Source: Chromatiales bacterium
Lineage (GTDB): Bacteria; Pseudomonadota; Gammaproteobacteria; Steroidobacterales; GCA-2729495
Reading direction: 5' to 3'
Length of the DNA stretch: 64,000 nucleotides
Assembly: GCA_020351875.1 (NCBI GenBank)
Contig: CP070671.1
Span: forward strand, 2,064,965 to 2,128,964
Below the pieces are notes generated by a model. The model was not told the DNA's origin and made no database searches. It saw nothing but the letters and a program-made list of their open reading frames with translations. Shown here piece by piece: positions 15,196-28,696 of the stretch; within the stretch, counting starts at the first letter, position 1, and every line of letters starts with the position of its first letter. A program made the position numbers and the translations under genes.

Positions 15196-15672
15196 TTAGC
15201 GTCGGGCGTGCGCGCGATGTCGCCCGGCGCCTGGCTGACTGGCGCTAAGTCCCACGGAGACCCGGATTGTGTCGCCGGGGTGTTGCGCCACCCGCCGCTC
15301 GTAGACTCGACCGGTATACTCGTACCGCACCTGGTAGCCCGCCAGTTCCTGCTTGGCTTCCATGCGCGTCACCATGCGGCAGCGGTAGACCTCGGCAGGC
15401 GCCTTGCGAAGTTCGATATCCTGGTCTAGTGCGCCGAGAAGCCCCGCACCGGGGTCGACGGCCCGGGCGTCGCCCAGCATGGCCGGGTCAACCGGGTTGG
15501 GCGTGGCGGGTTGCTCGTAGCCGCATTCCTGCACTTCGACCGGCACCTGGCGGGCTGCGTAAACGGGCTGCGTGGCGATGACGCGCGCCTCATCGTAGAA
15601 GATTTCCGCGGTAGCCGGTATTGCGAGCGCCAGGGTGGTGAGTGTGGCGATGGTGAGTAGACCCTTGTGCAT
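15196..15672 (-). CDS. exported 2TM-lacking relative of glycine-zipper proteins
   Basis: 158 residues with a signal peptide (ending PATAE). It has the flanking blocks of the glycine-zipper protein at 25676-26293: an N-terminal VPVEVQECGY Cys block and a C-terminal YRCRMVTRMEAKQELAGYQVRYEYTGRVYERRVAQHPGD block. The Gly-rich two-helix segment between them is replaced by a short Pro/Asp linker. It follows the lytic transglycosylase by 21 bases and is the last gene of the envelope operon. Function unknown. Confidence 0.75.
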   Translation of the reverse strand: MHKGLLTIATLTTLALAIPATAEIFYDEARVIATQPVYAARQVPVEVQECGYEQPATPNPVDPAMLGDARAVDPGAGLLGALDQDIELRKAPAEVYRCRMVTRMEAKQELAGYQVRYEYTGRVYERRVAQHPGDTIRVSVGLSASQPGAGRHRAHARR

Positions 15673-15693
15673 GTTGTTCTCCTTATCCTCCGG

Positions 15694-16479
15694 CTACTGC
15701 AGCGGGAAACCCGCCCGTTTCAGCTGGTTGGCGCTGCGGCTGAACTCATCGCGGTCGCCGTAGCTGAGCACGACCACGAATTCACCGACGCCCTGGCGGA
15801 ACCAGTCCAGCTCCAGGTCGGGGGCATAGGCTTCCAGGCGTTCGATGAAGGCGGCGGCGCGATAGGGTTCGCCGAAGCGGATGACGGTGGTGCGGCCGAG
15901 TTCCGAATACAGCCGGTTGGTTTTCGGTGAGCCGGTGATGCGGTCGCCGAGCACGTAACCTAGGTGGCGATAGATGTAGCCGCTGTACCACTCCGCACCC
16001 GACGGGATGCTGCGGCCATTGGCCGCGATGCGCCCGGGCCCGTAGTTGTAGGCGGCCAGCGCCAGGTGCACGTTGCCGTCGTAGGTAGACAGCAGTTCTT
16101 TGAGATACCGCGCGCCGGCATCGATATTGGTGCAGGGATCGTAGAGTTCCGACAGGCGGTGGATGCCGAGGTGATTGGCCGTGCTTGGCCACAGGATCTG
16201 CATCACGCCGTAGGCGTCGGCCTTCGAGCGCGCGGTGGCCTCGAAGTCGCTCTCGCCCCGCGCAACCGCCAGCAACAGTGTCTCTGGCAGATTGTGTGCG
16301 TTGGCCGCGCGCGTGAAGCAATGCGAATGCGGGAAGGTGTAACTCGGCGCCAGGTCGGTGTCATTCGCAAGGTAGTCGCGCCAGGCCTGCTCCAGGCGGG
16401 GTTCCGTGCGCGCGGTGGCGACGCTGCACGCGAAGACGGAGAGCAGCGTGATGACTAGTGCTTTGCGCACGGCGATCAC
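15694..16479 (-). CDS. lytic transglycosylase (SLT) with SPOR-like C-terminus
   Basis: 261 residues, GTG start overlapping the upstream stop as GTGA. After a signal peptide (ending ATART), an SLT domain spans about residues 52-180: catalytic Glu76 in ARGESDF, SKADAYGVMQI, TNIDAGARYLKELL, LALAAYNYGPGRI. It cleaves peptidoglycan glycan strands to 1,6-anhydromuramyl products in the periplasm. The last 60 residues (AAAFIERLEAY...GEFVVVLSYGD) look SPOR-like and align with the C-terminus of the upstream protein. The operon context ties it to the ExbB-like channel. Confidence 0.88.
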   Translation of the reverse strand: MIAVRKALVITLLSVFACSVATARTEPRLEQAWRDYLANDTDLAPSYTFPHSHCFTRAANAHNLPETLLLAVARGESDFEATARSKADAYGVMQILWPSTANHLGIHRLSELYDPCTNIDAGARYLKELLSTYDGNVHLALAAYNYGPGRIAANGRSIPSGAEWYSGYIYRHLGYVLGDRITGSPKTNRLYSELGRTTVIRFGEPYRAAAFIERLEAYAPDLELDWFRQGVGEFVVVLSYGDRDEFSRSANQLKRAGFPLQ

Positions 16480-17162
16480 GGCACCGCCTCCGGCAGGTCC
16501 AGCCCGGTGGCGCCCTGGATCTGCGCGAGCTTCGCGGCGCGCTCGCTGTCATCCGAATAGGCGAAGGCCACCTGGTAGGCGCCGGGCTTCAGGCACACCA
16601 CGCGATAGTCGATGTCAGTGACGGCCGACAGACGCGCGGCAAAACCATTGGCCGCGATCTGGCTGCGGAAGGGATTCCAGATGGACTGCCAGTGCGCATC
16701 CTGAGCCGGCGCCGCCGGCGCGGCGGCTGCGGACGCTTCGTCCATCAGGGGTGCGACCTCGGCCAGCACGGTGGCTGGCGATGCCGGCTCAACACTTGCG
16801 GGCGGTAGCGGTTCCGTCTCGAGGCTTTCGTCGAGACCCCACTCGGGCCCTTGCAATTCTTCAGGCAGCGGCACGTCGGCGACGCGCGTTGCCGGTACTT
16901 CGGCTTCGGTCACTAATTCAGCGGGCAAAACCGATTCCGCCGGTGCCGCGACCTCGCCCACCGGTTCGGCGGGCGCGTCGGGTAACGGCGCTTCGACCAC
17001 CGGCTCCGCTACGGCTTCCGCGATCGCCGGTAATGCGAGTCGCTGCGCTGTGACTTCGACAGGCACAAGCCCTTGCTCGTCGCGCAGCTCCGGGCTGCCC
17101 AAAACCATAACCATCGCGCCGATCACCAGCGCCGCGCCTGTCACAAATCCCAGTACTCGCAT
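16476..17162 (-). CDS. membrane-anchored Pro/Ala/Glu-rich protein with SPOR-like domain
   Basis: 228 residues. An N-terminal membrane anchor (about 5-23), a long acidic Ala/Pro/Glu linker (residues 35-150), then a compact C-terminal domain NGFAARLSAVT...PGAYQVAFAYSDDSE...LAQIQGATGL. This is a SPOR-like arrangement, as in FtsN-type proteins that bind denuded glycan. ATG 17162 follows GGAGG; GTG 17165 is an alternative. Coupled to the transglycosylase by a four-base overlap. The domain call rests on visual alignment only. Confidence 0.65.
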   Translation of the reverse strand: MRVLGFVTGAALVIGAMVMVLGSPELRDEQGLVPVEVTAQRLALPAIAEAVAEPVVEAPLPDAPAEPVGEVAAPAESVLPAELVTEAEVPATRVADVPLPEELQGPEWGLDESLETEPLPPASVEPASPATVLAEVAPLMDEASAAAAPAAPAQDAHWQSIWNPFRSQIAANGFAARLSAVTDIDYRVVCLKPGAYQVAFAYSDDSERAAKLAQIQGATGLDLPEAVP

Positions 17163-17175
17163 CACGGTGGCCTCC

Positions 17176-18681
17176 TCAGTACACGTGCTCGACACGCACG
17201 GCCTGCCAGTCGAGCGCGTGCTGCCAGCGGTGAGTGATATCGCGGAGCCCGCCGAGCCAGGCCTCCAGCTCCAGTCCTTCCAGTCCCTGTTTGGCCGACA
17301 GCGTGCAGCGGGCCGGTAATTGACCGACGTGTGCGCTCAGTTCGCGGGCCGCATTCGGGTCGCTGACCGCGATGGCGTAGAAACTCTCCAGCCCCGGGTG
17401 GCCCTGCCAGGCGGAGGCGGATTGCCGCACGTCCTGCGCCGTTGGAAAGTGCAGGGGCTGGCCGGCGCGCGCGTTGATCCACTGTGTTTGCCCGCAGCGC
17501 GGGCCTGCCAGGGTCACCAGGCCATGGATGACCTGGTAGTTCAGCAGGAACACCGACGCATCGCGCTCTGCGCGGGTCTCCAGCAGGAAGCAGTCGCCGC
17601 GCTTGATGTGGTGGTCCGCGGTCACCAGTCCCGCCCGGCGATACGACCCGCGCCAGTTGCACGCGCGGCGCTTGCGCGGTTCGACGATGCGCAACGGGGT
17701 GAGCAGGTCGTTGCTCACTGCGTTGACGGGTAAGGGTGCCGGTGGGGTGACGTTTGTTTGCGCGACGGTGGTGCTCCCCGTGTACGGCAGGCGCACATAG
17801 GTGCTGGCGCTCACGGCGGGCACAGTATCCGCGTCACCGGTCGGGGTGATCGTCACCCAGTACTGGTACAGGTCGCCGGCGATCGCGTGGGCCTTGCCTT
17901 CCAGCCGGGCGTTGGCCGCGTTTACATTCGACGTGAGCTGCAGCGCGGGTTGCCCGGCCAGGTTGTTGCGCACGAGGGCTAGCGCGCCGCTCATGGCGTT
18001 TGTGTTTGCGGTGTCGTTCTCGTCGGCCTTGGCCGCGATCACGTATTCGCCGGACACCTGGCGCAACAGGTTGCAGGTGAATTCGTGGGCCAGGCGCGCG
18101 GCCAGCAGGTCGGCCTGGGCCGATGTGTACGGCACCTCGCGGCTGCCGCGGAAGTATTCGTCGGTCATCGCCTGTTTGAAGGCGTCTTTTTGCTTGCGTG
18201 TCAGGCGGCCTTCCCAGGATTGGCCCGTGCCGGTCACCCAGCTGCGGTCGGTGGCATCGAGCACGCGCAGCGCCACGCGGTGCCGGCCATCCATCAGCTG
18301 CGTGACTTCCAGGCCCAGGTAGTAGTGCACGGTGTCGCGCGTGCAGTCCACGGCCGGGCCGTCGCGGCCGGCGGCGTTGTTCGTCGATTGCCAGCCGATG
18401 TTGATGCCCGGCTGGTCGACAAGCGTATTCGCCAGCCGCTGGCGAATCGCCAGCACCAGCTTGTTGGTGACCGGTGCCGGCGCGCCGTTGTTGAGCCCGA
18501 CGAACACCACCGTCTCGCCCTTGAAGCGCGGGTGCTCGGTGAGCTGTTCGGCGACATAGGGTGCGAGGTCCTGGTCCACCCAGGTGCCGAGGTCGGCGGC
18601 GCTCGCCTCTGACGCCGACCAAGCCACGAGGCACGCGAACAGTAGCAGGGCGGTGAAGGGGTTCAGCCAGGGCACGTTCAC
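17176..18681 (-). CDS. periplasmic protein with DUF4384-like C-terminal domain
   Basis: 501 residues, signal peptide (ending ASAAD). The N-terminal 180 residues (LTEHPRFKGETVVFVGLNNGAPAPVTNKLVLAIRQRL...DTVHYYLGLEV) recall the periplasmic CsgG/LpoB-like fold. The C-terminal part (RGDCFLLETRAERDASVFLLNYQ...ESFYAIAVSDP) recalls DUF4384, which often follows regulatory or secretion modules. Four to five Cys in the C-terminal half suggest disulfides. It starts one base after the end of the upstream gene. Function unknown; probably part of the envelope complex. Confidence 0.6.
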   Translation of the reverse strand: MNVPWLNPFTALLLFACLVAWSASEASAADLGTWVDQDLAPYVAEQLTEHPRFKGETVVFVGLNNGAPAPVTNKLVLAIRQRLANTLVDQPGINIGWQSTNNAAGRDGPAVDCTRDTVHYYLGLEVTQLMDGRHRVALRVLDATDRSWVTGTGQSWEGRLTRKQKDAFKQAMTDEYFRGSREVPYTSAQADLLAARLAHEFTCNLLRQVSGEYVIAAKADENDTANTNAMSGALALVRNNLAGQPALQLTSNVNAANARLEGKAHAIAGDLYQYWVTITPTGDADTVPAVSASTYVRLPYTGSTTVAQTNVTPPAPLPVNAVSNDLLTPLRIVEPRKRRACNWRGSYRRAGLVTADHHIKRGDCFLLETRAERDASVFLLNYQVIHGLVTLAGPRCGQTQWINARAGQPLHFPTAQDVRQSASAWQGHPGLESFYAIAVSDPNAARELSAHVGQLPARCTLSAKQGLEGLELEAWLGGLRDITHRWQHALDWQAVRVEHVY

Positions 18682-18682
18682 G

Positions 18683-19672
18683 TTACTGCTCCAGCCGCAG
18701 GTTGCCGTCGCCTTCGATCACCAGCGCACCGCCAGTGTGTTCGGCCAGGTAGCCGTTGAGTTGCCCGCGCATCTTCGGCGGCAGCGTGACGCCCCACTGG
18801 AATTTGGGGCCAGACCCCTCGGGGTCAGGCCCCGGGTCAGGGCCCAGGGCGCCGGCGCGACGTAGTGCGGTGGTGACATCCGCCGGCACCGTGCCGGGGT
18901 CCATCTCGTGAAACTGGTTGGGGGCCGACGCGGGCCAGAAGCTGACCGTGCCGCGGTTCACGCTCATGCGTAGCGACTTCTTCTCACCGATGGCGTACAG
19001 GCCGATCTCGTTGCGCGCGACCAGGCGGGTGAGGGCGGCGTCGGATTCGAAACGCAACGTAAATCCCTCGCGAGCAGGGACGTTGGCTGGCGCCTCCGTA
19101 CCTTCCTCAACGGGCACGTGCTGGTTCGCCGAAGATGTCGGCTCCCGTGACGTCGTGGTCAAGTCTTGATCGTTGGGTGGCGAAAAGGGCGCAGGCGCCG
19201 GCGGGGAGCTTGGAGGCACGGGGGCTTCTGCAAGCCCACGCGCCGCCGGTTCCGGTGGGGGTGCCGGTGTTGCCGGCGCCTGCGTTGACTCGGGCGGTGT
19301 GTTCTCGGCGACGGGGTCCCGTTTCGGAATCAGATCCCGCCAGGTGATTTCGCGGATGTTCGAAGGCGAAGGGTTGGGCTGGGCGGCTACCGATTCCGGG
19401 GCCGCCGTTGGCTGCGGCTTTTCTGGCGAAGGTGCTGCTTTCGCCAGTGGAGCTACGGCGGGCTCAGTCGGGCTCACGGGTGGCGGAGCAGGCCGTACTG
19501 ATTCCAAAGGGCTCAGGGGTTCCAGCGAAATGCTCTGTACCAGCGCGAAGATCGCGACCAGGCACAGGGCCAGGATGGCCATGAAGCGCATAATGTCGGT
19601 CTGCAGGTCGGCCGCACCGCCGGCGTCCATGTCGGCAGTGCGCGCCAGGGGGTGGTAGAGCAAACGGTTCAT
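18683..19672 (-). CDS. ExbD-like membrane-anchored proline-rich protein
   Basis: 329 residues. One membrane helix at about 28-46 is preceded by DLQTDIMRFMAIL, in the style of ExbD/TolR N-termini. A Pro/Ala/Ser-rich periplasmic linker (50-200) is followed by a C-terminal globular region with FTLRFESDAALTRLV and a short fold to the end. Residues encoded at 18806-18833 (around PDPEGSGP) come from a GGGGTC-type palindrome inserted in frame. The start overlaps the ExbB-like stop as ATGA. It is probably the partner of the channel protein; a canonical ExbD Asp in the helix is not evident. Confidence 0.6.
   Translation of the reverse strand: MNRLLYHPLARTADMDAGGAADLQTDIMRFMAILALCLVAIFALVQSISLEPLSPLESVRPAPPPVSPTEPAVAPLAKAAPSPEKPQPTAAPESVAAQPNPSPSNIREITWRDLIPKRDPVAENTPPESTQAPATPAPPPEPAARGLAEAPVPPSSPPAPAPFSPPNDQDLTTTSREPTSSANQHVPVEEGTEAPANVPAREGFTLRFESDAALTRLVARNEIGLYAIGEKKSLRMSVNRGTVSFWPASAPNQFHEMDPGTVPADVTTALRRAGALGPDPGPDPEGSGPKFQWGVTLPPKMRGQLNGYLAEHTGGALVIEGDGNLRLEQ
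18806..18833. repeat. GGGGTC-type palindrome inside a coding region
   Basis: GGGGCCAGACCCC (18806-18818) pairs with GGGGTCAGGCCCC (18821-18833) with one mismatch and a two-base spacer. It is in frame within the ExbD-like gene and adds a Gly/Pro/Asp-rich stretch. Confidence 0.75.
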
Positions 19673-20406
19673 CGCTGCTCACCGGTGGCCGGTCCGTGGC
19701 TGCGTTGGGTGGACAAGGGGACGGACCCCATTCCTGGAATGGGGTCGGTCCCCGTTTCGTTCTCGGTCCCCGTTTTGTCGAGGTGGTGTTCGATGCGGGC
19801 CAGCGAGTCGCGCATGGCCACGGTGTCGAAGCGCGCGGCGCGGTCGTAGTGCTGCTGCAGTTGCGAGCCGAGCGTCAGCGCTTTGTACACGCGCATGAGA
19901 TAGCCGCCGACCCCGCCGAAGATGGTGGTGGACAGCGCCAGCAGGATGCCGCCGTTCACCATGCGCTCGAGAATCGCAAACGCCCCCTGTTGCAGCGTCG
20001 CGTCCGGGTCGCCCAGCGCGTAGATCAGCGCGCCGCGCATGCCGATGGCCGTCCAGATCACGCCGGTGCCGAAGAACAGCGTGGTCCAGATGTCGCAGAG
20101 CTGGTCGAGCTGCACGATCTGGTTCGTGCGGGCGCCGTCACCTTCGCTGGCATCGTTGAGCCCGGTACGCAGCCGCTGCAGCGTGACGAAGTATGCGAGC
20201 AGCAGCACCGCGAACACCGGGATCGACGAGCCGAGGTTGAGATACGCCCATTCCAGCCAGTGGCTGAACTCGGGCAGACGGTGGTCGGGGAAGGCCAGCA
20301 GCCCCAGGTGCGCGAGCGTGTAGATCAGCGCGGTCCCGCCGACCAGCGTGCCGAACACGCCGGCCATGAGACCTTGCAGAAACTGCCGTGCACTCGAGTA
20401 GACCAT
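19669..20406 (-). CDS. ExbB/MotA/TolQ-like channel protein
   Basis: 245 residues with four hydrophobic segments (about 12-36, 62-77, 110-131, 148-173). The last two carry TGVIWTAIGMRGAL and VNGGILLALSTTIFGGVGGY, which match the pore helices of the MotA/TolQ/ExbB proton-channel family (GxxGTVxG and A...T.xGL patterns). Such proteins form pentamers around two ExbD/MotB-type subunits and convert proton flow into force. The C-terminal tail (GTENETGTDPIPGMGSVP) is encoded by an inserted palindrome. ATGA overlap with the ExbD-like gene downstream. Confidence 0.72.
   Translation of the reverse strand: MVYSSARQFLQGLMAGVFGTLVGGTALIYTLAHLGLLAFPDHRLPEFSHWLEWAYLNLGSSIPVFAVLLLAYFVTLQRLRTGLNDASEGDGARTNQIVQLDQLCDIWTTLFFGTGVIWTAIGMRGALIYALGDPDATLQQGAFAILERMVNGGILLALSTTIFGGVGGYLMRVYKALTLGSQLQQHYDRAARFDTVAMRDSLARIEHHLDKTGTENETGTDPIPGMGSVPLSTQRSHGPATGEQR
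19717..19753. repeat. GGGGTC-type palindrome inside a coding region
   Basis: Arms GGGGACGGACCCCATTCC (19717-19734) and GGAATGGGGTCGGTCCCC (19736-19753) pair over 18 bases with one mismatch and a single-base spacer. The element is translated in frame near the C-terminus of the ExbB-like gene. Confidence 0.85.
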
Positions 20407-20431
20407 CAGCCGTTCACCGTTTGCCGTGGCC

Positions 20432-20977
20432 CTAGCGCGCGGCGCAGGCCGTGCAGGTGGCCTCGAGCACCAGCTCGACTTCCTGGTAGAGCTCGTTGGC
20501 GCGGTAGTAACCGTCGTTGTCGAGGCTCACCTTCAGCAAGCCGCGTTCTTTGGCGTTCAGCTCGCGTTCCATCTCCAGGTACACGCGGTCGCGGCGCGGG
20601 CAGCTGTGCGAACAATTGTTGTAGTCCCCTTCCAGCGCCACGAACTTCACGTTGAAGTAGGTGTTGTAGTAGCGCTCGGCCTGGCGACGGCTCAACAGGC
20701 CCTGGTCCTTGGACCAGACCAGGAATTCACTGAACGCGCGCTTGTTCTCCGGCTTCGGGTCGCCTTCGGCAATAGTCAGCAGCTCGTCGTAGTAACGGTC
20801 GAACTGGGCTTCGCAGCCGTTCAGCAACTCGGTCTGCACCTGGTCGATGGCCGCGCTCAGGTTCTTCGTCGTCGGGCTGTTGCACGGCGGCGGTGTCGTC
20901 GCGCAGGAGGCAAGCAGCGCGGCGGCGGCGAGCACGCTCGCGAGGCCGGCTACAGGTAAAGTGAATCGTGTGTTCAT
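20432..20977 (-). CDS. lipoprotein of the envelope operon
   Basis: 181 residues from ATG 20977 (GGAGAC upstream). Lipoprotein signal with lipobox LLASC. The mature part is mainly helical and Cys-containing (PPPCNSP, NGCEAQF, NNCSHSCPRRD, EATCTACAAR), with seven Cys that suggest disulfides or metal binding. No family recognised. It lies second in the operon, 26 bases before the channel gene, and could link the channel to the outer membrane. Confidence 0.75.
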   Translation of the reverse strand: MNTRFTLPVAGLASVLAAAALLASCATTPPPCNSPTTKNLSAAIDQVQTELLNGCEAQFDRYYDELLTIAEGDPKPENKRAFSEFLVWSKDQGLLSRRQAERYYNTYFNVKFVALEGDYNNCSHSCPRRDRVYLEMERELNAKERGLLKVSLDNDGYYRANELYQEVELVLEATCTACAAR

Positions 20978-21005
20978 GACTGGGTCTCCGTCAGATCGTT
21001 GCGCA

Positions 21006-21842
21006 TCAGTACTGCAGCGGGCTGGTGTAGGCTTGCTCCACCTGGGCAGGCGGCGGGCCGGCAATCTGGATGTCGCTGCCGGTTTCACCGAACAGGATCG
21101 ACTTCACGCCGCCGACGACCTCCATCATCTCGGGCGTGACGATGCCGAAGCTCTGGTTCACCTGTTCCATCACCGTGGCGCGCGCGATTTCTTCGCGGGT
21201 GCGGGCAATGAGCAGGCTGGTTTCTTCCATGTCGAGATAGACATCGGCGGCGAGCACGGCCAGGGACTGGTCGCTGCGGCTGCCGGAGGTCGAGACCAGC
21301 TGGTAGTACTGCTTGAAGCGTTCGGAAAGGCGCATGCCGGAACGGCCGCGCAGCTTGGGTGCGGGCGCGGTCTTGCCTTCGGGCGCGCCGGCCAGCAGGG
21401 TTTCCTGCAGCATCCACGGCGTCATCTTGTTGCCGAGTTCACTGCGCAGGCGCTTTTCCAGGCTCAGCCGCGTGTTGTTCACGGTGTGTTCCATGTCCGG
21501 CAGGCGCTCTTCCATGATGGCGAGCATCTCCAGGTACGTGGCCCCGAGCTGTTTCGCCATGCGCTGGCAGCCGGGGTCGTCCTCGGCGCCTTCGCACTTG
21601 CTGTCGATGTACAGCTGCTGTTGCTGGTCGAGCCGGCCGATGACTTCCTGCAGGCCGGTTTCCATTTCGCGCGCCACCGTGCTGGTCTGGCGCAGGTCCT
21701 CCACTACGGTGGTGGGGAAGAGGCGAATGGTGGGGCCGTCGGGTTTGTTGCTGACGGTAGCCGCGAGGGCCGCGTCAGCCGAGGCCAGTGCCAGGCACGC
21801 CAGCAGCGCGGCGGCAGGGATGCGTTCAGGGTTCCAGTTCAT
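21006..21842 (-). CDS. exported helical protein, first gene of the envelope operon
   Basis: 278 residues with a signal peptide ending AALAAT. The mature protein is mostly alpha-helical and charged, with likely coiled coils (TSTVAREMETGLQEVIGRLD; EERLPDMEHTVNNTRLSLEKRL) and no known motif. Its only Cys pair is KCEGAEDDPGCQR. It heads the minus-strand run of eight genes to 15196. Function unknown. Confidence 0.75.
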   Translation of the reverse strand: MNWNPERIPAAALLACLALASADAALAATVSNKPDGPTIRLFPTTVVEDLRQTSTVAREMETGLQEVIGRLDQQQQLYIDSKCEGAEDDPGCQRMAKQLGATYLEMLAIMEERLPDMEHTVNNTRLSLEKRLRSELGNKMTPWMLQETLLAGAPEGKTAPAPKLRGRSGMRLSERFKQYYQLVSTSGSRSDQSLAVLAADVYLDMEETSLLIARTREEIARATVMEQVNQSFGIVTPEMMEVVGGVKSILFGETGSDIQIAGPPPAQVEQAYTSPLQY

Positions 21843-21990: not shown

Positions 21991-22227
21991 ATGGCCAGAA
22001 CCGCACAGGATGTCTACCGCGACGCGCTTGCCCTGAGCGAGGAAGAGCGCGAGGAACTGATTCAGCTGCTGACGATGCAGGCCGACGACGGCTGGGGGAG
22101 CCCGGAGATCAAGCAGGCGTGGATGGAAGAGATCGCGCGGCGGGAGAAGCGCTATCTCGACGGCACGGCGAAATCTATTCCATTGGACGAAGTCCTCCGC
22201 AGGGCACACGAAATCGTCGATGAATGA
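21991..22227 (+). CDS. addiction-module antitoxin (PF09720-type)
   Basis: 78 residues, starting MARTAQDVYRDALALSEEEREELI with the helical ALxLSxxERxELxxxL pattern of the unstable-antitoxin family, then SPEIKQAWMEEIARRE and a C-terminal IPLDEVLRRA segment that wraps the toxin. It overlaps the toxin gene by four bases (ATGA). It should neutralise the adjacent ParE-type toxin and repress the operon. Confidence 0.9.
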   Translation: MARTAQDVYRDALALSEEEREELIQLLTMQADDGWGSPEIKQAWMEEIARREKRYLDGTAKSIPLDEVLRRAHEIVDE

Positions 22228-22562
22228 AGTATCGTCTTGACGACGAGGCGTCCGACGAGTTCATCAACGCGGTGCAGCACTATGCGCGGATGGATCGTCG
22301 GCTTGGTCGCCGCTTCATTGAGGACCTTCGGCGCTCCCTGTCGTTGTTGAGGGATAATCCTTACCTCGGGCCACGGGTAATTGGCGACAATCGTCGCCTG
22401 CTGCTCAAGCGGTTTCCCTACCTGGTTATCTATCGCGTCGATACCGCGAGTCGGCTTATCCACATCCTGGCGATCGTCGATCAGCGGCGCAGGCCTGACG
22501 CTTGGCGAACACGCGTTGAAGAGCCGCCAGCGGCCTACGAGGCGCTGGGCTGGGCCGCCTGA
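22224..22562 (+). CDS. RelE/ParE-family toxin
   Basis: 112 residues with the ParE pattern: LDDEASDEFINAVQHYARMDRRLGRRFIEDL, LLRDNPYLGPRV, RLLLKRFPYLVIYRVD, and the C-terminal VDQRRRPDAWRTRV. All core elements are present, so it is probably active. The target (gyrase or ribosome) cannot be told from sequence. Translationally coupled to its antitoxin. Confidence 0.9.
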   Translation: MKYRLDDEASDEFINAVQHYARMDRRLGRRFIEDLRRSLSLLRDNPYLGPRVIGDNRRLLLKRFPYLVIYRVDTASRLIHILAIVDQRRRPDAWRTRVEEPPAAYEALGWAA

Positions 22563-22576
22563 CGGTTTGGGCAAAG

Positions 22577-22591
22577 TACGTCAAAGACGTA
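22577..22591. promoter_or_regulatory. short palindromic operator candidate
   Basis: TACGTC (22577-22582) and GACGTA (22586-22591) are a perfect six-base inverted repeat with AAA between, 34 bases before the helix-turn-helix gene. It is the expected size for autoregulation by an antitoxin-type XRE protein. Confidence 0.45.
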
Positions 22592-22624
22592 TAGTTGAGC
22601 CAGACAACCATTAATCCTTCGGCG

Positions 22625-22963
22625 ATGAATCGACCAAAAAGCTCCTATGAGGACATCCGGCAAGGGCTGGAGGAATTCATACACAATCCTGATGCGCTCA
22701 CACGCTACGAATATCCGGAACCGGATGTACGTGCGATTCGCGAGGGCATGGACCTTTCGCAAGCCCAATTTGCCGCGCTGATGGCGGTTAGTGTCCGTAC
22801 CTTGCAGAACTGGGAGCAGGGTCACCGTTCGCCGACCGGGGCGGCGAGGACCCTGCTGCGGGTGATGCAGGTGCGACCGGGGGCCGTGCTCGAGTCCGTG
22901 CATCCGCGGGCGGTCAAGTCGTCCAAACGCCGGGCTGGTGGAGGGCGGCAGCAGTCTGCGTGA
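22625..22963 (+). CDS. XRE-type helix-turn-helix protein, NadS/HigA-like orphan antitoxin
   Basis: 112 residues from ATG 22625. The region EPDVRAIREGMDLSQAQFAALMAVSVRTLQNWEQGHRSPTGAARTLLRVMQ is a classic HTH_3 antitoxin domain (about 35-85), followed by a basic tail. NadS-like proteins normally follow a HigB/RelE toxin of their own family. The gene upstream is a ParE toxin with its own antitoxin, so this copy looks orphaned. Confidence 0.8.
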   Translation: MNRPKSSYEDIRQGLEEFIHNPDALTRYEYPEPDVRAIREGMDLSQAQFAALMAVSVRTLQNWEQGHRSPTGAARTLLRVMQVRPGAVLESVHPRAVKSSKRRAGGGRQQSA

Positions 22964-24379: not shown

Positions 24380-24850
24380 TTACCGGTAGCGCTTGTCCCG
24401 CACCGTGATGCCGACGTCATCGAGCCAGAGGCTGAATGCATTGCGCTGGTAGCCGTGGTTCGTGTAACAGACCCGGTCACCGTGCCAGTGGCGGCGCGCA
24501 GCCCGGGAGTTCTGGCGCCGGTGGGCGCGCCAGTGCTTGCGGGCCCGCTTGTGCTGGCGCCAGTGCCGGCGGGCATGCTTGTTTCCACGCCATTGCTTGC
24601 CGCGGCGCCAGTGGCGATCGCGATAGCGCCGGCCGTCGCGGTAATGACCGTGGCGGTCATTGCGGTGCATGTCGCGTCGCTCAGCCCGGCGGTTCGAACG
24701 GAATTTGCTACCGTCGTGCTGCCGCGTCGCATGGCTGTGTCGATCGCCGTCACGATGGCCGCGACCGCGGTGGTCATCGGCGCTGGCGGCAGCCGAAAGG
24801 CTTAGAGCGAGGGCCGCTGCCAGTACCAGTGTGAGTTTTCTGTGTTTCAT
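24380..24850 (-). CDS. exported His/Arg-rich protein
   Basis: 156 residues from ATG 24850. Signal peptide (ending AAASADD), then a strongly basic region of about 95 residues rich in R, H, D and W (RGRGHRDGDRHSH, DRHWRRGKQWRG, ARRHWRQHKRARKHW). A short ordered C-terminus (CYTNHGYQRNAFSLWLDDVG) follows. The His density suggests metal binding, and the Trp/Arg pattern suggests an envelope or nucleic-acid contact; neither is proven. No family recognised. Confidence 0.65.
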   Translation of the reverse strand: MKHRKLTLVLAAALALSLSAAASADDHRGRGHRDGDRHSHATRQHDGSKFRSNRRAERRDMHRNDRHGHYRDGRRYRDRHWRRGKQWRGNKHARRHWRQHKRARKHWRAHRRQNSRAARRHWHGDRVCYTNHGYQRNAFSLWLDDVGITVRDKRYR

Positions 24851-24959
24851 CACATTGCTCCTTCACTTTCGCGAGCCGAAGTCCGGCCCTGGCACACAAG
24901 CTAGATCGGAGTTGCTGAATCCCCCCTGAACTGGAGGGCGCTGGATAGAACCACGTCCC

Positions 24960-25675: not shown

Positions 25676-26293
25676 ATGAACATTCGAAAAGCCAAAGCAA
25701 CAACCATTGCAACGATGCTGGTCGCAGGCCTGCCGGGCGTTGCCCTGAGCGGCGGCCATGATGGTGGCGACTTCATGATCGAAGCGCCGGTCACCCGCGT
25801 GGAACCGCTGGTGACCATCGTGGACGTGTCCACGCCCAAGGAAGTCTGCTGGAACGAACAGGTCCGGCATCACACGCGTGGCCACCGGTCGAATACGCCG
25901 GTGATCGTCGGCGGTGCCATCGGCGGCCTGGTCGGTGCGGCCCTTGGTGACGGTCGACGTTCCCGCCGCGGCCTGGCGGCTGTGGGTGCCCTGCTGGGTG
26001 CCGGTGCCGGCTACAAGCATTCGGTGCGCCACGCGCGGCCCGGACACACTTATGTCACCACCGAGCGCGTGTGCGAGATCGAGCAGGTCACGCACCAGGA
26101 AGAGCGCATCGACGGCTACCGCGTGACCTATGAGTACCGCGGCCGGACCTTCGTCACACATACGGCGACGGACCCGGGCGCGACGATCCCGGTCACGGTG
26201 AGCGTGCAGCCGGTCACCTATAATAATGACGGTTACCAGCCGGCCCGTTACCCGAGCCGCAAGCCCTATCGGAATCGTAATTACGAGACCTGA
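25676..26293 (+). CDS. glycine-zipper 2TM-domain exported protein
   Basis: 205 residues. Signal peptide (ending VALSGG), a Cys-containing block (KEVCWNEQV), a glycine-zipper pair NTPVIVGGAIGGLVGAALG and GLAAVGALLGAGAGY, then VCEIEQVTHQEERIDGYRVTYEYRGRTFVTHTATDPG. This matches the 17-kDa-antigen/YMGG-type envelope proteins. Probably peripheral or integral in the outer membrane. It precedes a PepSY-like gene and a two-component pair, which may respond to envelope state. Confidence 0.85.
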   Translation: MNIRKAKATTIATMLVAGLPGVALSGGHDGGDFMIEAPVTRVEPLVTIVDVSTPKEVCWNEQVRHHTRGHRSNTPVIVGGAIGGLVGAALGDGRRSRRGLAAVGALLGAGAGYKHSVRHARPGHTYVTTERVCEIEQVTHQEERIDGYRVTYEYRGRTFVTHTATDPGATIPVTVSVQPVTYNNDGYQPARYPSRKPYRNRNYET

Positions 26294-26295
26294 AG

Positions 26296-26583
26296 TTGAA
26301 GGAAAGACGAGTAATCGCTGCCCTGCTTGCCCTTGCCGCCGCCATGTCTGTTGTTGCAGCCCCGGCGTTCGGTGGAGATCACAAGCACCCCTCGCTGCGC
26401 ATGCAGCTGGCCCAGTCGGAGATTTCCTCCGACCAGGCCGCAGCCATCGCCCGCCGGGCAACTGGTGGCCGGGTGCTGAAGGTGAAGCGCAAGGGCGGCG
26501 TGTACCACGTCAGGGTTTTGCTCGACGGTGACCGCGTGCGCAAGGTGCATGTAGATGCCCGCACCGGTCGCGTGCAGAACTGA
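26296..26583 (+). CDS. small exported PepSY-like protein
   Basis: 95 residues with a TTG start two bases after the glycine-zipper stop. Signal peptide (LLALAAAMSVVAAPAFGG), then SSDQAAAIARRATGGRVLKVKRKGGVYHVRVLLDGDRVRKVHVDARTG, a single PepSY domain. PepSY genes often sit beside PhoPQ-type systems, as here. The TTG start is unusual, but it is the only one that gives a full signal peptide. Confidence 0.78.
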   Translation: MKERRVIAALLALAAAMSVVAAPAFGGDHKHPSLRMQLAQSEISSDQAAAIARRATGGRVLKVKRKGGVYHVRVLLDGDRVRKVHVDARTGRVQN

Positions 26584-26605
26584 GCCGGGAACGGAGGCCA
26601 AAGAT

Positions 26606-27289
26606 ATGCGAGTGCTGGTAATTGAAGACGAAGGTGCGCTGCGCGAGCAGCTGGTGCAGTCACTGCGCCAGGCCGGTTACGCAGTGGATGCGACCGACCG
26701 CGGTGAAGAAGGCGCGTACATGGGCCGCGAATACCCGGTGGACGTCGCGGTGCTGGACCTGGGCCTGCCGGACATCGACGGGCTGGAGGTGCTGAACCGC
26801 TGGCGCGATGCCGGCTTCGACTTCCCCGTGCTGGTGCTGACCGCGCGCGGCCGCTGGGACGAAAAAGTCGAAGGGCTGGAAAACGGTGCCGATGACTACC
26901 TGGCCAAGCCCTTCCATATGGAAGAGGTGCTGGCGCGGCTGCGCGCACTGGTGCGCCGGTCCAGCGGCTGGGCGACCCGCGTGCTGATGGCCGGGCCCAT
27001 TACGCTCGACACCGGCACGCACCAGGTGCGCGTGGGCGAACGCGAACTCGAGCTCACGGCTTACGAATACCGCCTGCTGGAATACCTGATGCTGCATGCG
27101 GGCGAGGTGATCTCCAAGACCACGCTGGCGGAACACCTGTACGACGAAGAAACCGACCGCGACAGCAACGTGGTGGAAGTGCTGGTGGGTCGCCTGCGGC
27201 GCAAGCTGGACCCCGACAGCGACTTTGCCCCCATTGAAACGCTCCGCGGGCGCGGCTACCGGCTGCGCGCGGCCACCACCGACGCGTGA
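26606..27289 (+). CDS. OmpR/PhoP-family response regulator
   Basis: 227 residues from ATG 26606 (GGAGG upstream). Receiver domain with acidic pair E7/D8, phospho-acceptor D51 in AVLDLGLPD, and Lys in LAKPF; then a winged-helix DNA-binding domain (LTAYEYRLLEYLMLHAGEVISKTTLAEHLYD, NVVEVLVGRLRRKL, ETLRGRGYRL). Closest in style to PhoP. It lies 22 bases after the PepSY gene and 33 before its kinase. Confidence 0.93.
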   Translation: MRVLVIEDEGALREQLVQSLRQAGYAVDATDRGEEGAYMGREYPVDVAVLDLGLPDIDGLEVLNRWRDAGFDFPVLVLTARGRWDEKVEGLENGADDYLAKPFHMEEVLARLRALVRRSSGWATRVLMAGPITLDTGTHQVRVGERELELTAYEYRLLEYLMLHAGEVISKTTLAEHLYDEETDRDSNVVEVLVGRLRRKLDPDSDFAPIETLRGRGYRLRAATTDA

Positions 27290-27322
27290 CGACCCGGCGC
27301 ACTGTGGGGGGGTGAGTGCGCA

Positions 27323-28696
27323 ATGACCGACGTTGAAGGCAAACGGCCCGGCTGGTCGCTGCGGCTGCGGGTGCTGCTGGCCGGTGCGGTGGTCGTGGCG
27401 TTATTCGCCGGACTGACGGGGCTCGCTGCCGAGCGCGCGTTTCGCGCCAGCGTGGAAGAAATGGGCCGCGCCCGCCTGCAGTCACGCATCTACATGCTGA
27501 TGGGTGCGGTGAACGTGGATGAAGCGGGCGCGCCGACCGTGCCGGTGGCGCTGCCGGAACCGCGGCTGTCCATCCCCGGGTCGGGCTCGTATGCGGCCAT
27601 CGCGGCGGTGGGCGGCGAGTTGCTGTGGCAATCCGACTCCAGCCTGGGTGTGCAGGTGCAATACGGCGTGGAGCACAGCTCTGACGATGCCGGTTTGAGC
27701 CCGGTCATGCCCGACGACAGAGATCCGCTGCAGACCATCGCCTACCCCGTGTTCTGGGAACTGGACAACGGCGAGGAACAGATCTTCATTTTCCAGGCGG
27801 CGGAAAGCCGCGCGGCCATGGAAGCGGAAGTGGCCGCGTTTCGCGAAATCCTGTGGCGCTGGCTCGGCGGTGGTGCGATTGCCCTGCTCGTGATGCAGGC
27901 CGGCGTGCTGATCTGGAGCCTGTCACCGGTGCAGCGGGTGGCCCGGGAGGTCGGCGAAATCGAAACCGGTAATCGCGGCGCGCTCGGTTCCGACTACCCC
28001 CGCGAGTTGCGGCGCCTGACCGATGGTCTCAATGCACTGATCGGCGGCCGGGAAGCGCGCCTGCGCCGCTACCGCAACACGCTGAGCGACCTCGCGCACA
28101 GTTTGAAAACACCGCTGGCCGTGTTGCGCGCCACGCAGGGTGACGAGAAGGGCGCTGCGTCGACAGAAGTGAACGAACAGCTCGACCGCATGCAGCAGAC
28201 CATCGACTACCACGTGCAGCGCGCGGCGATGTCCGGCCATTCGCCGTTGGCGGCACCGGTGCCGGTGCGGCCGGCGGCGGAGCGCCTGATCAACTCGCTG
28301 CAGAAGATTTACCACGACAAGGGACTCACCATCGACTGCGATATCCCCGAGTCCATTGTGTTTGCCGGCGATCTGGGGGATCTCGCAGAACTGCTCGGCA
28401 ACCTCGGCGACAACGCCTGCAAGTGGGCCCGCGCGCGCGTGCGTTTCCAGGCGGCCAACGAACCGGGCCCGGGCGAGCGGCGGCGCCTGCACCTCAGCGT
28501 GGAAGACGACGGCCCGGGCATCCCAGACGACCTGCGCGAAGCGGTGCTCCAGCGCGGCATGCGCGCGGACTCCCGGGTACCCGGCACGGGCATTGGCCTG
28601 GCGGTGGTGCGCGAAACGGTGGAAGAAATCTACGGCGGCAGCGTGCAGATCGACGTCGGTGATCTCGGTGGCACCCGCGTGCGGCTGATTTGCTAG
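27323..28696 (+). CDS. PhoQ-like sensor histidine kinase
   Basis: 457 residues. Two membrane helices (about 15-37 and 178-198) flank a periplasmic sensor of about 140 residues. A HAMP-like stretch follows, then the H-box LSDLAHSLKTPLAVLR with the phosphorylated His, the N-box LGNLGDNACKWA, and G-boxes VEDDGPGIPDD and GTGIGLAVV. It should phosphorylate the adjacent regulator. The stop codon's last base is the first base of a palindromic repeat, which may also end transcription. Confidence 0.92.
   Translation: MTDVEGKRPGWSLRLRVLLAGAVVVALFAGLTGLAAERAFRASVEEMGRARLQSRIYMLMGAVNVDEAGAPTVPVALPEPRLSIPGSGSYAAIAAVGGELLWQSDSSLGVQVQYGVEHSSDDAGLSPVMPDDRDPLQTIAYPVFWELDNGEEQIFIFQAAESRAAMEAEVAAFREILWRWLGGGAIALLVMQAGVLIWSLSPVQRVAREVGEIETGNRGALGSDYPRELRRLTDGLNALIGGREARLRRYRNTLSDLAHSLKTPLAVLRATQGDEKGAASTEVNEQLDRMQQTIDYHVQRAAMSGHSPLAAPVPVRPAAERLINSLQKIYHDKGLTIDCDIPESIVFAGDLGDLAELLGNLGDNACKWARARVRFQAANEPGPGERRRLHLSVEDDGPGIPDDLREAVLQRGMRADSRVPGTGIGLAVVRETVEEIYGGSVQIDVGDLGGTRVRLIC

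Follow-up and report, generated by a model that had tools for sequence, protein, structure and literature searches.

A conserved seven-gene operon encoding a candidate MotA/TolQ/ExbB-type membrane pair and a lytic transglycosylase in a Chromatiales bacterium

Does an operon that sets a channel-like membrane protein beside a lytic transglycosylase encode a motor that acts on the bacterial cell wall? The question is raised by a locus of a Chromatiales bacterium (GenBank assembly GCA_020351875.1, contig CP070671.1), whose genome consists of one contig of 3.49 Mb. A stretch of 64 000 nucleotides (nt) of this contig, here called the window, was analysed, and all positions are those of the window unless a locus is named. 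Positions 15196–21842 of the minus strand are filled by eight open reading frames (ORFs), transcribed in the order A (from 21842), B, C, D, E, F, G and H (to 15196). The intergenic gaps, which depend on the start codons chosen for A–H, are 28 nt (A–B), 25 nt (B–C), −4 nt (C–D, an ATGA overlap), 1 nt (D–E), 13 nt (E–F), −4 nt (F–G, a GTGA overlap) and 21 nt (G–H). A preliminary description, made from the sequence alone, had reported these eight genes with their short gaps or ATGA/GTGA overlaps, and both are found as described. It had interpreted them as an operon for a proton-driven motor acting on peptidoglycan; that interpretation is partly supported, as set out below, while the underlying observation was correct. 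A scan for promoters and terminators gave nothing clearly above chance. As the preliminary description had supposed, no named system with such a gene set was found in the open-licence literature, within which the A–G operon is uncharacterised.

The gene order recurs in other genomes. A pattern scan with the alignment of C, using one genome per species (84 980 species), returned 151 stretches, of which 107 were confirmed; only the best 80 of these were taken as loci, and distant carriers are therefore under-sampled. Counted with iterated profiles for each gene, all seven genes A–G are present in 61 of these 80 loci, which are named gammaproteobacterial, and they are colinear on a single strand in 59. 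Among the remaining 21 loci, 16 run off the locus edge, two (L097 and L098) have EFG before ABCD, two are cut by runs of N and one is rearranged. L098 belongs to the record of Litorirhabdus singularis IMCC14734, a cultivable carrier. Indeed, 16 of the 19 incomplete loci end at the locus edge on the missing side (within ∼ 150 nt). The two cut loci, L081 and L088, are broken inside D; another part of the scaffolded chromosome carries the rest of D together with E and, in one case, F–G–H. Since both pieces of D end in runs of N, the splits are read as scaffolding breaks and not as exceptions to the gene order. A real exception is L084/L183 (C–B; F–G–D). Gene H follows G in only 11 of the 57 loci with room beyond G. 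A gene order not conserved elsewhere would have refuted the preliminary description; the order is conserved, distant genomes included, but the conserved unit comprises seven genes, A–G, with H facultative. The flanks vary: a feoB-like gene (so labelled by reading the sequence) lies upstream in 25/80 loci and a nucleoside-kinase-like gene downstream in 24/80, whereas in the window a ParDE-type toxin–antitoxin pair and a helix-turn-helix (HTH) gene lie upstream. Because the flanking genes differ between loci while A–G stays, A–G is kept as a block, and this is so in many marine bacteria; that it forms one unit is near certain.

Selection and distribution were also assessed. Six genes (A, B, C, E, G and H, that is without D and F, and with C over 165 codons only) were compared with the nearest relative, giving non-synonymous divergences (dN) of 0.10–0.25, synonymous divergences (dS) of 0.68–1.16 and dN/dS ratios of ∼ 0.14 (A), ∼ 0.14 (B), 0.20 (C), 0.27 (E), 0.17 (G) and 0.17 (H). 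As dS lies far above dN, these six genes are under purifying selection. In a first sample C was detected in 8/60 genomes including the host; one of these, G022, is a chance match of 36 residues that contains a stop and overlaps a NuoG-like ORF (by reading). In a class-wide sample C occurs in 6/369 genomes including the host, and A in exactly those six; E is found in five of them, with one weak partial match in a further genome (G278), and in the sixth (G242) the contig ends inside D. An apparent second copy of C in the host genome (G000:C1:469480; tblastn, 28% identity, two stops) was rejected as a chance match whose frame crosses stops. The loci most similar to C of the window come from metagenome-assembled genomes (MAGs) named Woeseiaceae or Gammaproteobacteria. 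Woeseiales are given as 1–22% of retrieved 16S sequences in marine sediments in the account of PMC7082342. Two copies of the cluster are present in the MAG MO_071.B18 (L025, L032) and in genome G430 (L187, L188). At L181 (G455:C1:612000-624000) E follows part of D, the match to F is weak and no G was found alongside, and a match to the tail of G elsewhere on the same chromosome carries a stop; the A–G set may be decaying there.

What, then, might the unit do? We propose, and regard as evenly balanced between right and wrong, that A–G form a machine spanning the envelope: C and D would be its ion-driven motor, A, B and E the outer partners, and F and G the proteins that bring wall cutting to chosen glycan, with the cutting governed by the motor.

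The cutting enzyme would be G (15694–16479, minus strand), which combines an N-terminal hydrophobic segment, an SLT lytic transglycosylase domain and a SPOR-like tail. Its match to Pfam SLT (2.7e-28, 98.3 bits, cut-off 21.3) makes it the only one of the eight proteins to reach a curated cut-off in Pfam; in NCBIfam none of the eight does so. The profile of G also matches Slt70 (6e-20). The active-site motif is intact: E76-S77, M93-Q94-I95 and A143-Y144-N145 are invariant in 23/23 aligned sequences, and the corresponding patterns are present in 66 to 67 of 67 matches (66/67 for the E-S pattern). In this count, and in those on 86 matches of C and 82 of D given below, four contigs appear twice because they have two locus ids, matches from L001–L011 were dropped, and so were matches of ≤ 100 aa (D) or < 150 aa (C, G). 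We take the catalytic domain to be of the GH23 type. Among the labels given in the preliminary description, lytic transglycosylase is therefore the one that Pfam upholds; C, D, E, F and H reach no curated model cut-off, and matches to TolQ/ExbB, ExbD, SPOR and DUF4384 do not exceed theirs in any of the eight proteins.

Protein F (16476–17162, minus strand) consists of an N-terminal hydrophobic segment, a Pro-rich linker and a SPOR-like domain. This C-terminal domain is homologous to the tail of G (hhalign P 9.7e-9, against 0.02 and 0.012 for reversed controls), a comparison made with F-only and G-only sets, the iterated profile of F having absorbed tails of G, which inflated its match to G. 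When aligned with SPOR, F gave 4e-4, G 1e-3 and the combined F+G profile 0.0086 (reversed controls 0.13, 0.012 and 0.053, respectively), and only the combined profile reached full-length SPOR register. F of the window has no Pfam SPOR match, and 4/23 members of its family match at best with an E-value of 0.063. The SPOR identity of the two domains is thus weak, which counts against our proposal. SPOR domains are described as binding denuded glycan, which is enriched at septa (PMC6895207). If the assignment holds, the SPOR-like domains would bring F and G to particular, probably peptide-stripped, glycan strands, perhaps at the division site, and G would cut the strand there. The closest parallel for this arrangement is provided by RlpA and the SPOR-domain lytic transglycosylases, in which a lytic transglycosylase is likewise joined to a SPOR-like domain. 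The catalytic domain of RlpA has another fold than SLT; G differs from RlpA in having an SLT catalytic domain and in sitting in a motor-like operon.

The same enzyme could serve a humbler purpose. It is possible, though we hold it to be appreciably less probable than our proposal, that the transglycosylase merely opens a gap in the wall for the building of a trans-envelope apparatus made of the C–D motor with A, B and E, whose output would lie at the outer membrane as transport, secretion, surface movement or lipid traffic. The NCBIfam matches of G include specialised assembly enzymes (the flagellar BB0259 type, best at 75 bits, and IagB at 30.5 bits, both under cut-off), and A and B are, along with C, the best conserved proteins relative to the nearest relative; both observations are consistent with such a role. 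However, the presence of a SPOR-like domain in both F and G suggests targeting to a particular glycan and not hole-making, and the core proteins match no TonB-dependent receptor, secretin or adhesin family in Pfam or NCBIfam. Cutting as the output and cutting as a means of making room for the machine cannot be told apart from the sequence.

The motor part of the proposal depends on C and D. C (19669–20406, minus strand, 245 aa) is a predicted four-helix inner-membrane protein and a candidate channel subunit of the MotA/TolQ/ExbB type. Its family (alignment of 36) has four hydrophobic segments, with ∼ 28 residues between the second and third by our own segmentation. The mean number of lysines plus arginines is 1.4 at the N-terminus, followed by 0.8, 2.9, 1.4 and, in the tail, 7.4, a distribution that fits an N-in/C-in topology, most clearly at the C-terminal tail. 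The AlphaFold2 model (36 sequences; pLDDT 84.5, pTM 0.66) has the predicted four-helix fold, with long helices at 92–131 and 134–218. In VIA its top match is TolQ (9ddn_E, Z 10.2, rmsd 4.9, 151 aligned); further TolQ chains, ExbB (5sv0, Z 9.9) and ZorA (8vvn, Z 9.1) come next. At the level of sequence profiles, hhalign aligned C with 22 TolQ/ExbB-type proteins from relatives in register over 167–168 columns (P 0.0067; reversed control 0.26), and with 12 ExbB-type proteins only over 40 columns with both motifs in register (P 0.0087), a score that the best of 80 shuffles ties. The motifs compared with the channel family are G-x3-T-x2-G-M, for the first pore helix, and A-L-x-T-T, for the second. 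They are kept in 86/86 matches of at least 150 aa, a conservation that is partly by construction because two of the motifs had served to retrieve the loci. Within the C-terminal tail of gene C lies a 37-nt near-perfect palindrome (19717–19753), in frame; the genome has no other copy of its half-site (up to two mismatches), and a dispersed repeat was rejected as an explanation.

D (18683–19672, minus strand) overlaps gene C by 4 nt and is a single-pass partner whose sole membrane helix is headed by Asp26; a Pro-rich spacer leads to a C-terminal domain (C-domain; residues 199–329). The Asp that heads the helix is present in 82/82 matches over 100 aa (79 by pattern and three on reading), in loci gathered through C. 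Most of the 29 aligned sequences have a Pro-rich spacer; that of L088, L089 and L097 is coiled-coil-like by reading. AlphaFold2 modelled the C-domain with good scores (29 sequences; pLDDT 88.4, pTM 0.78). In the window the C-domain carries a GC-rich inverted-repeat-like insert at ∼ 18804–18840 (GPDPGPDPEGSG) that is absent wholly or mostly from the 28 other aligned sequences. In L089 (L089:1113-2750), on a contig labelled Desulfobacterales that is close to the gammaproteobacterial copies, C and D form one uninterrupted frame; this is topologically possible, and it may be due to a sequencing error or to the contig, which is possibly misbinned.

Several results weigh against a motor of the known type. 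C of the window has no Pfam match, and MotA_ExbB (PF01618) is found in 1/36 family members with an E-value of 0.68; the profile of C has no significant match in the PDB; and Foldseek with the model of C gave no match at an E-value of 0.001, with TM-scores of ∼ 0.1–0.4 among the matches listed. The hhalign comparison with 10 TolQ-type proteins only was out of register (P 0.14). Against two MotA sequences C scored P 0.51, worse than the reversed control of these two (0.033), while MotA against TolQ/ExbB gave 0.011; these two were the only sequences passing the motif filter, a set too thin to lean on. As to D, no ExbD, TolR, TonB or OmpA chain is among the solved structures listed as matches to the model of its C-domain, for which the best scores were a Foldseek E-value of 0.039 with TM 0.22 and a single VIA row of Z 2.6, an unrelated protein. 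This result is an absence only and does not exclude an ExbD/TolR fold. No ExbD family is among the nine Pfam families matched by the 29 members of D at an E-value of 1. Since C fails the PF01618 model and D has no ExbD match, C and D are not filed as members of these families. By sequence profile the kinship of C to TolQ/ExbB is suggestive, not proof. The other result that would have refuted the preliminary description, no structural match of C to ExbB/MotA, is countered weakly: TolQ, ExbB and ZorA lead the membrane-protein matches, but not exclusively, as the next point shows.

If these negative results were taken at face value, C could be a four-helix membrane scaffold without an ion channel and D a single-pass tether, the two forming a passive linkage from inner to outer membrane that organises the transglycosylase. 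This would account for the lack of significant sequence homology between C and any channel family. It would also fit the observation that unrelated helical bundles of the SNARE type match the model of C in VIA at Z 9.8–10.0, which equals the level of TolQ, and that four of 80 block-shuffled controls beat the score of C against the 22 TolQ/ExbB-type proteins. Against a scaffold stand the invariant Asp heading the helix of D, the MotA-like layout of C, with four segments and charges that fit N-in/C-in, and the top-ranked membrane-protein matches of C, which fall in the 5:2 motor group. We consider the scaffold unlikely, and think it probable that C and D work like an ion-driven motor of the Tol/Ton/Mot type. 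A phage-defence system of the Zorya kind is very improbable, as the preliminary description had already judged: ZorA chains match the model of C (Z 8.1–9.1), but the eight proteins have no Zorya model among their PADLOC matches at an E-value of 1 and match no nuclease or helicase family in Pfam, C is absent from plasmid and phage records at an E-value of 1e-5, and A, B, E, F and G begin with a hydrophobic segment.

The likely C–D motor can be compared with those already described. Like TolQ–TolR(–TolA) and ExbB–ExbD(–TonB), it comprises an adjoining inner-membrane pair of a multi-helix and a single-helix protein, has a B subunit whose helix contains an Asp, and has envelope partners, and TolQ and ExbB lead the fold matches of C. 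Unlike them, C matches no family model and has four hydrophobic segments with a short cytoplasmic loop only, and the C-domain of D resembles none of ExbD, TolR and TonB among the structure matches listed. PF01618 is itself matched seven times in the host genome (L102 is TolQ-like by reading), so that C is not a replacement for those proteins. With MotA–MotB the pair shares the four hydrophobic segments of C and, by eye, the start of the helix of D (D-I-M-R-F-M, versus D-F-V-T-A-M of MotB in L143). In contrast to MotA, C lacks the torque-generating cytoplasmic domain, and in contrast to MotB, no OmpA-like domain was found in D with Pfam or among the structure matches listed. No match to MotA_N was found in the host genome. 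Like GldL–GldM and AglRQS, C–D would be a remote or distinct member of the 5:2 motor group, and the absence of clear sequence homology between GldLM and the other motors of that group, as stated in PMC9389320, provides a precedent for a motor such as C–D. The operon proteins differ in matching no gliding or type IX family, and GldM is reported to have four domains, versus a C-domain of ∼ 130 aa in D. ZorA–ZorB are likewise remote motor relatives by the fold of C, and Zorya gene models, nucleases and helicases are missing from the matches of the operon proteins. In a published classification such channels are grouped by their cytoplasmic domain, which has two to five helices, and ZorAB and GldLM count as remote relatives (PMC12505986); C would be smaller than the channel classes named there.

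On our proposal, the inner membrane would hold a motor of broadly MotA/TolQ/ExbB type with C as its ring and D as its axle, presumably assembled as pentamer and dimer, and the invariant Asp of D would bind the ion whose flow drives it. The Pro-rich or coiled-coil spacer of D would bring the C-domain outward, toward the wall and the outer membrane. There the lipoprotein B and the probably exported A would be the outer partners of the motor and E an exported regulator or sensor. The motor would gate or position the cutting by G, or couple it to movement of the outer membrane. The second half of the earlier interpretation, action on peptidoglycan, is inferred from the intact active site of the transglycosylase and from the SPOR-like domains.

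Six motors of this general kind are named in PMC12505986 and PMC9389320: MotAB, ExbBD, TolQR, AglRQS, GldLM and ZorAB. A–G may conceivably represent a further class of ion-driven trans-envelope motor, in which a minimal four-helix ring, almost devoid of a cytoplasmic domain, is combined with an axle bearing a C-domain of new fold and with a dedicated SPOR-targeted lytic transglycosylase whose cutting the motor switches; we put this forward tentatively and think it rather doubtful. We know of none of the six that has its own lytic transglycosylase in the operon, although they were not searched motor by motor, and on this tentative reading A–G would be the first motor with a direct link to the cutting of the wall. 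In our judgement the energetic and spatial control of bacterial wall cutting is an open question, and a compact conserved gene set that offers one aspartate and one catalytic glutamate for testing brings it within reach. Carriers of this set include the Woeseiaceae MAGs mentioned above.

The remaining proteins, A, B and E, match no described family convincingly, and in the libraries searched neither they nor the C-domain of D have significant relatives. Of the products of A–G, five (A, B, E, F and G) start with a hydrophobic segment. A (21006–21842, minus strand, 278 aa; alignment of 15) is helical and probably exported, as judged by this segment, with conserved C83 and C92. B (20432–20977, minus strand, 181 aa; alignment of 20) appears to be a lipoprotein (LLASC, C25) with further conserved Cys; C25, C32, C55 and C178 are invariant in the alignment. 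Neither A nor B has a significant match in Pfam or the PDB. E (17176–18681, minus strand, 501 aa; alignment of 22), also probably exported, has a possible DUF4384-like C-terminal part. Pfam DUF4384 is matched by 2/22 members of its family (best E-value 0.0023), E of the window not among them, and the Pfam matches of the members include no CsgG family. The optional H (15196–15672, minus strand) aligns with 17-kDa-antigen-like proteins and lacks the glycine zipper; its NCBIfam match (NF008437, E-value 2.4e-4) is below cut-off. In the test for zipper models H itself matched no family, and 4/16 of the aligned proteins match such models.

A cassette that the preliminary description does not mention lies nearby on the plus strand (25676–28696). 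It encodes a 17-kDa-type glycine-zipper protein, H′ (25676–26293; Pfam Rick_17kDa_Anti 4.5e-5, 23.7 bits with a cut-off of 24.2; 52% to the L042 copy by tblastn), a PepSY-domain protein (26296–26583; Pfam PepSY 5.7e-7), an OmpR-type response regulator (26606–27289; Pfam Response_reg 6.8e-25 and Trans_reg_C 1.6e-24; 72% to its counterpart in L042) and a sensor histidine kinase (27323–28696; Pfam HATPase_c 3.9e-15; 72% to the operon-associated kinase of the same-genus relative). In 8/80 loci (L042, L073, L074, L079, L080, L082, L086 and L098) the operon has a histidine kinase from a single family at a distance of 0.1–2.4 kb, a raw count over loci many of which have short flanks. All eight also have a response regulator and a glycine-zipper protein near the kinase, and six of them a PepSY protein. 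The cassette lies upstream or downstream and on either strand, and this varied placement suggests a functional tie to the operon, perhaps regulation by an envelope sensor. In L042, the same-genus relative, the zipper protein is only ∼ 0.7 kb from gene A.

Between operon and cassette the window holds, on the plus strand, the antitoxin/ParE-type pair and the HTH gene (21991–22963) and, on the minus strand, a gene for an Arg/His-rich protein with a leader-like start (24380–24853). By reading, L042 encodes a similar protein immediately upstream of its gene A.

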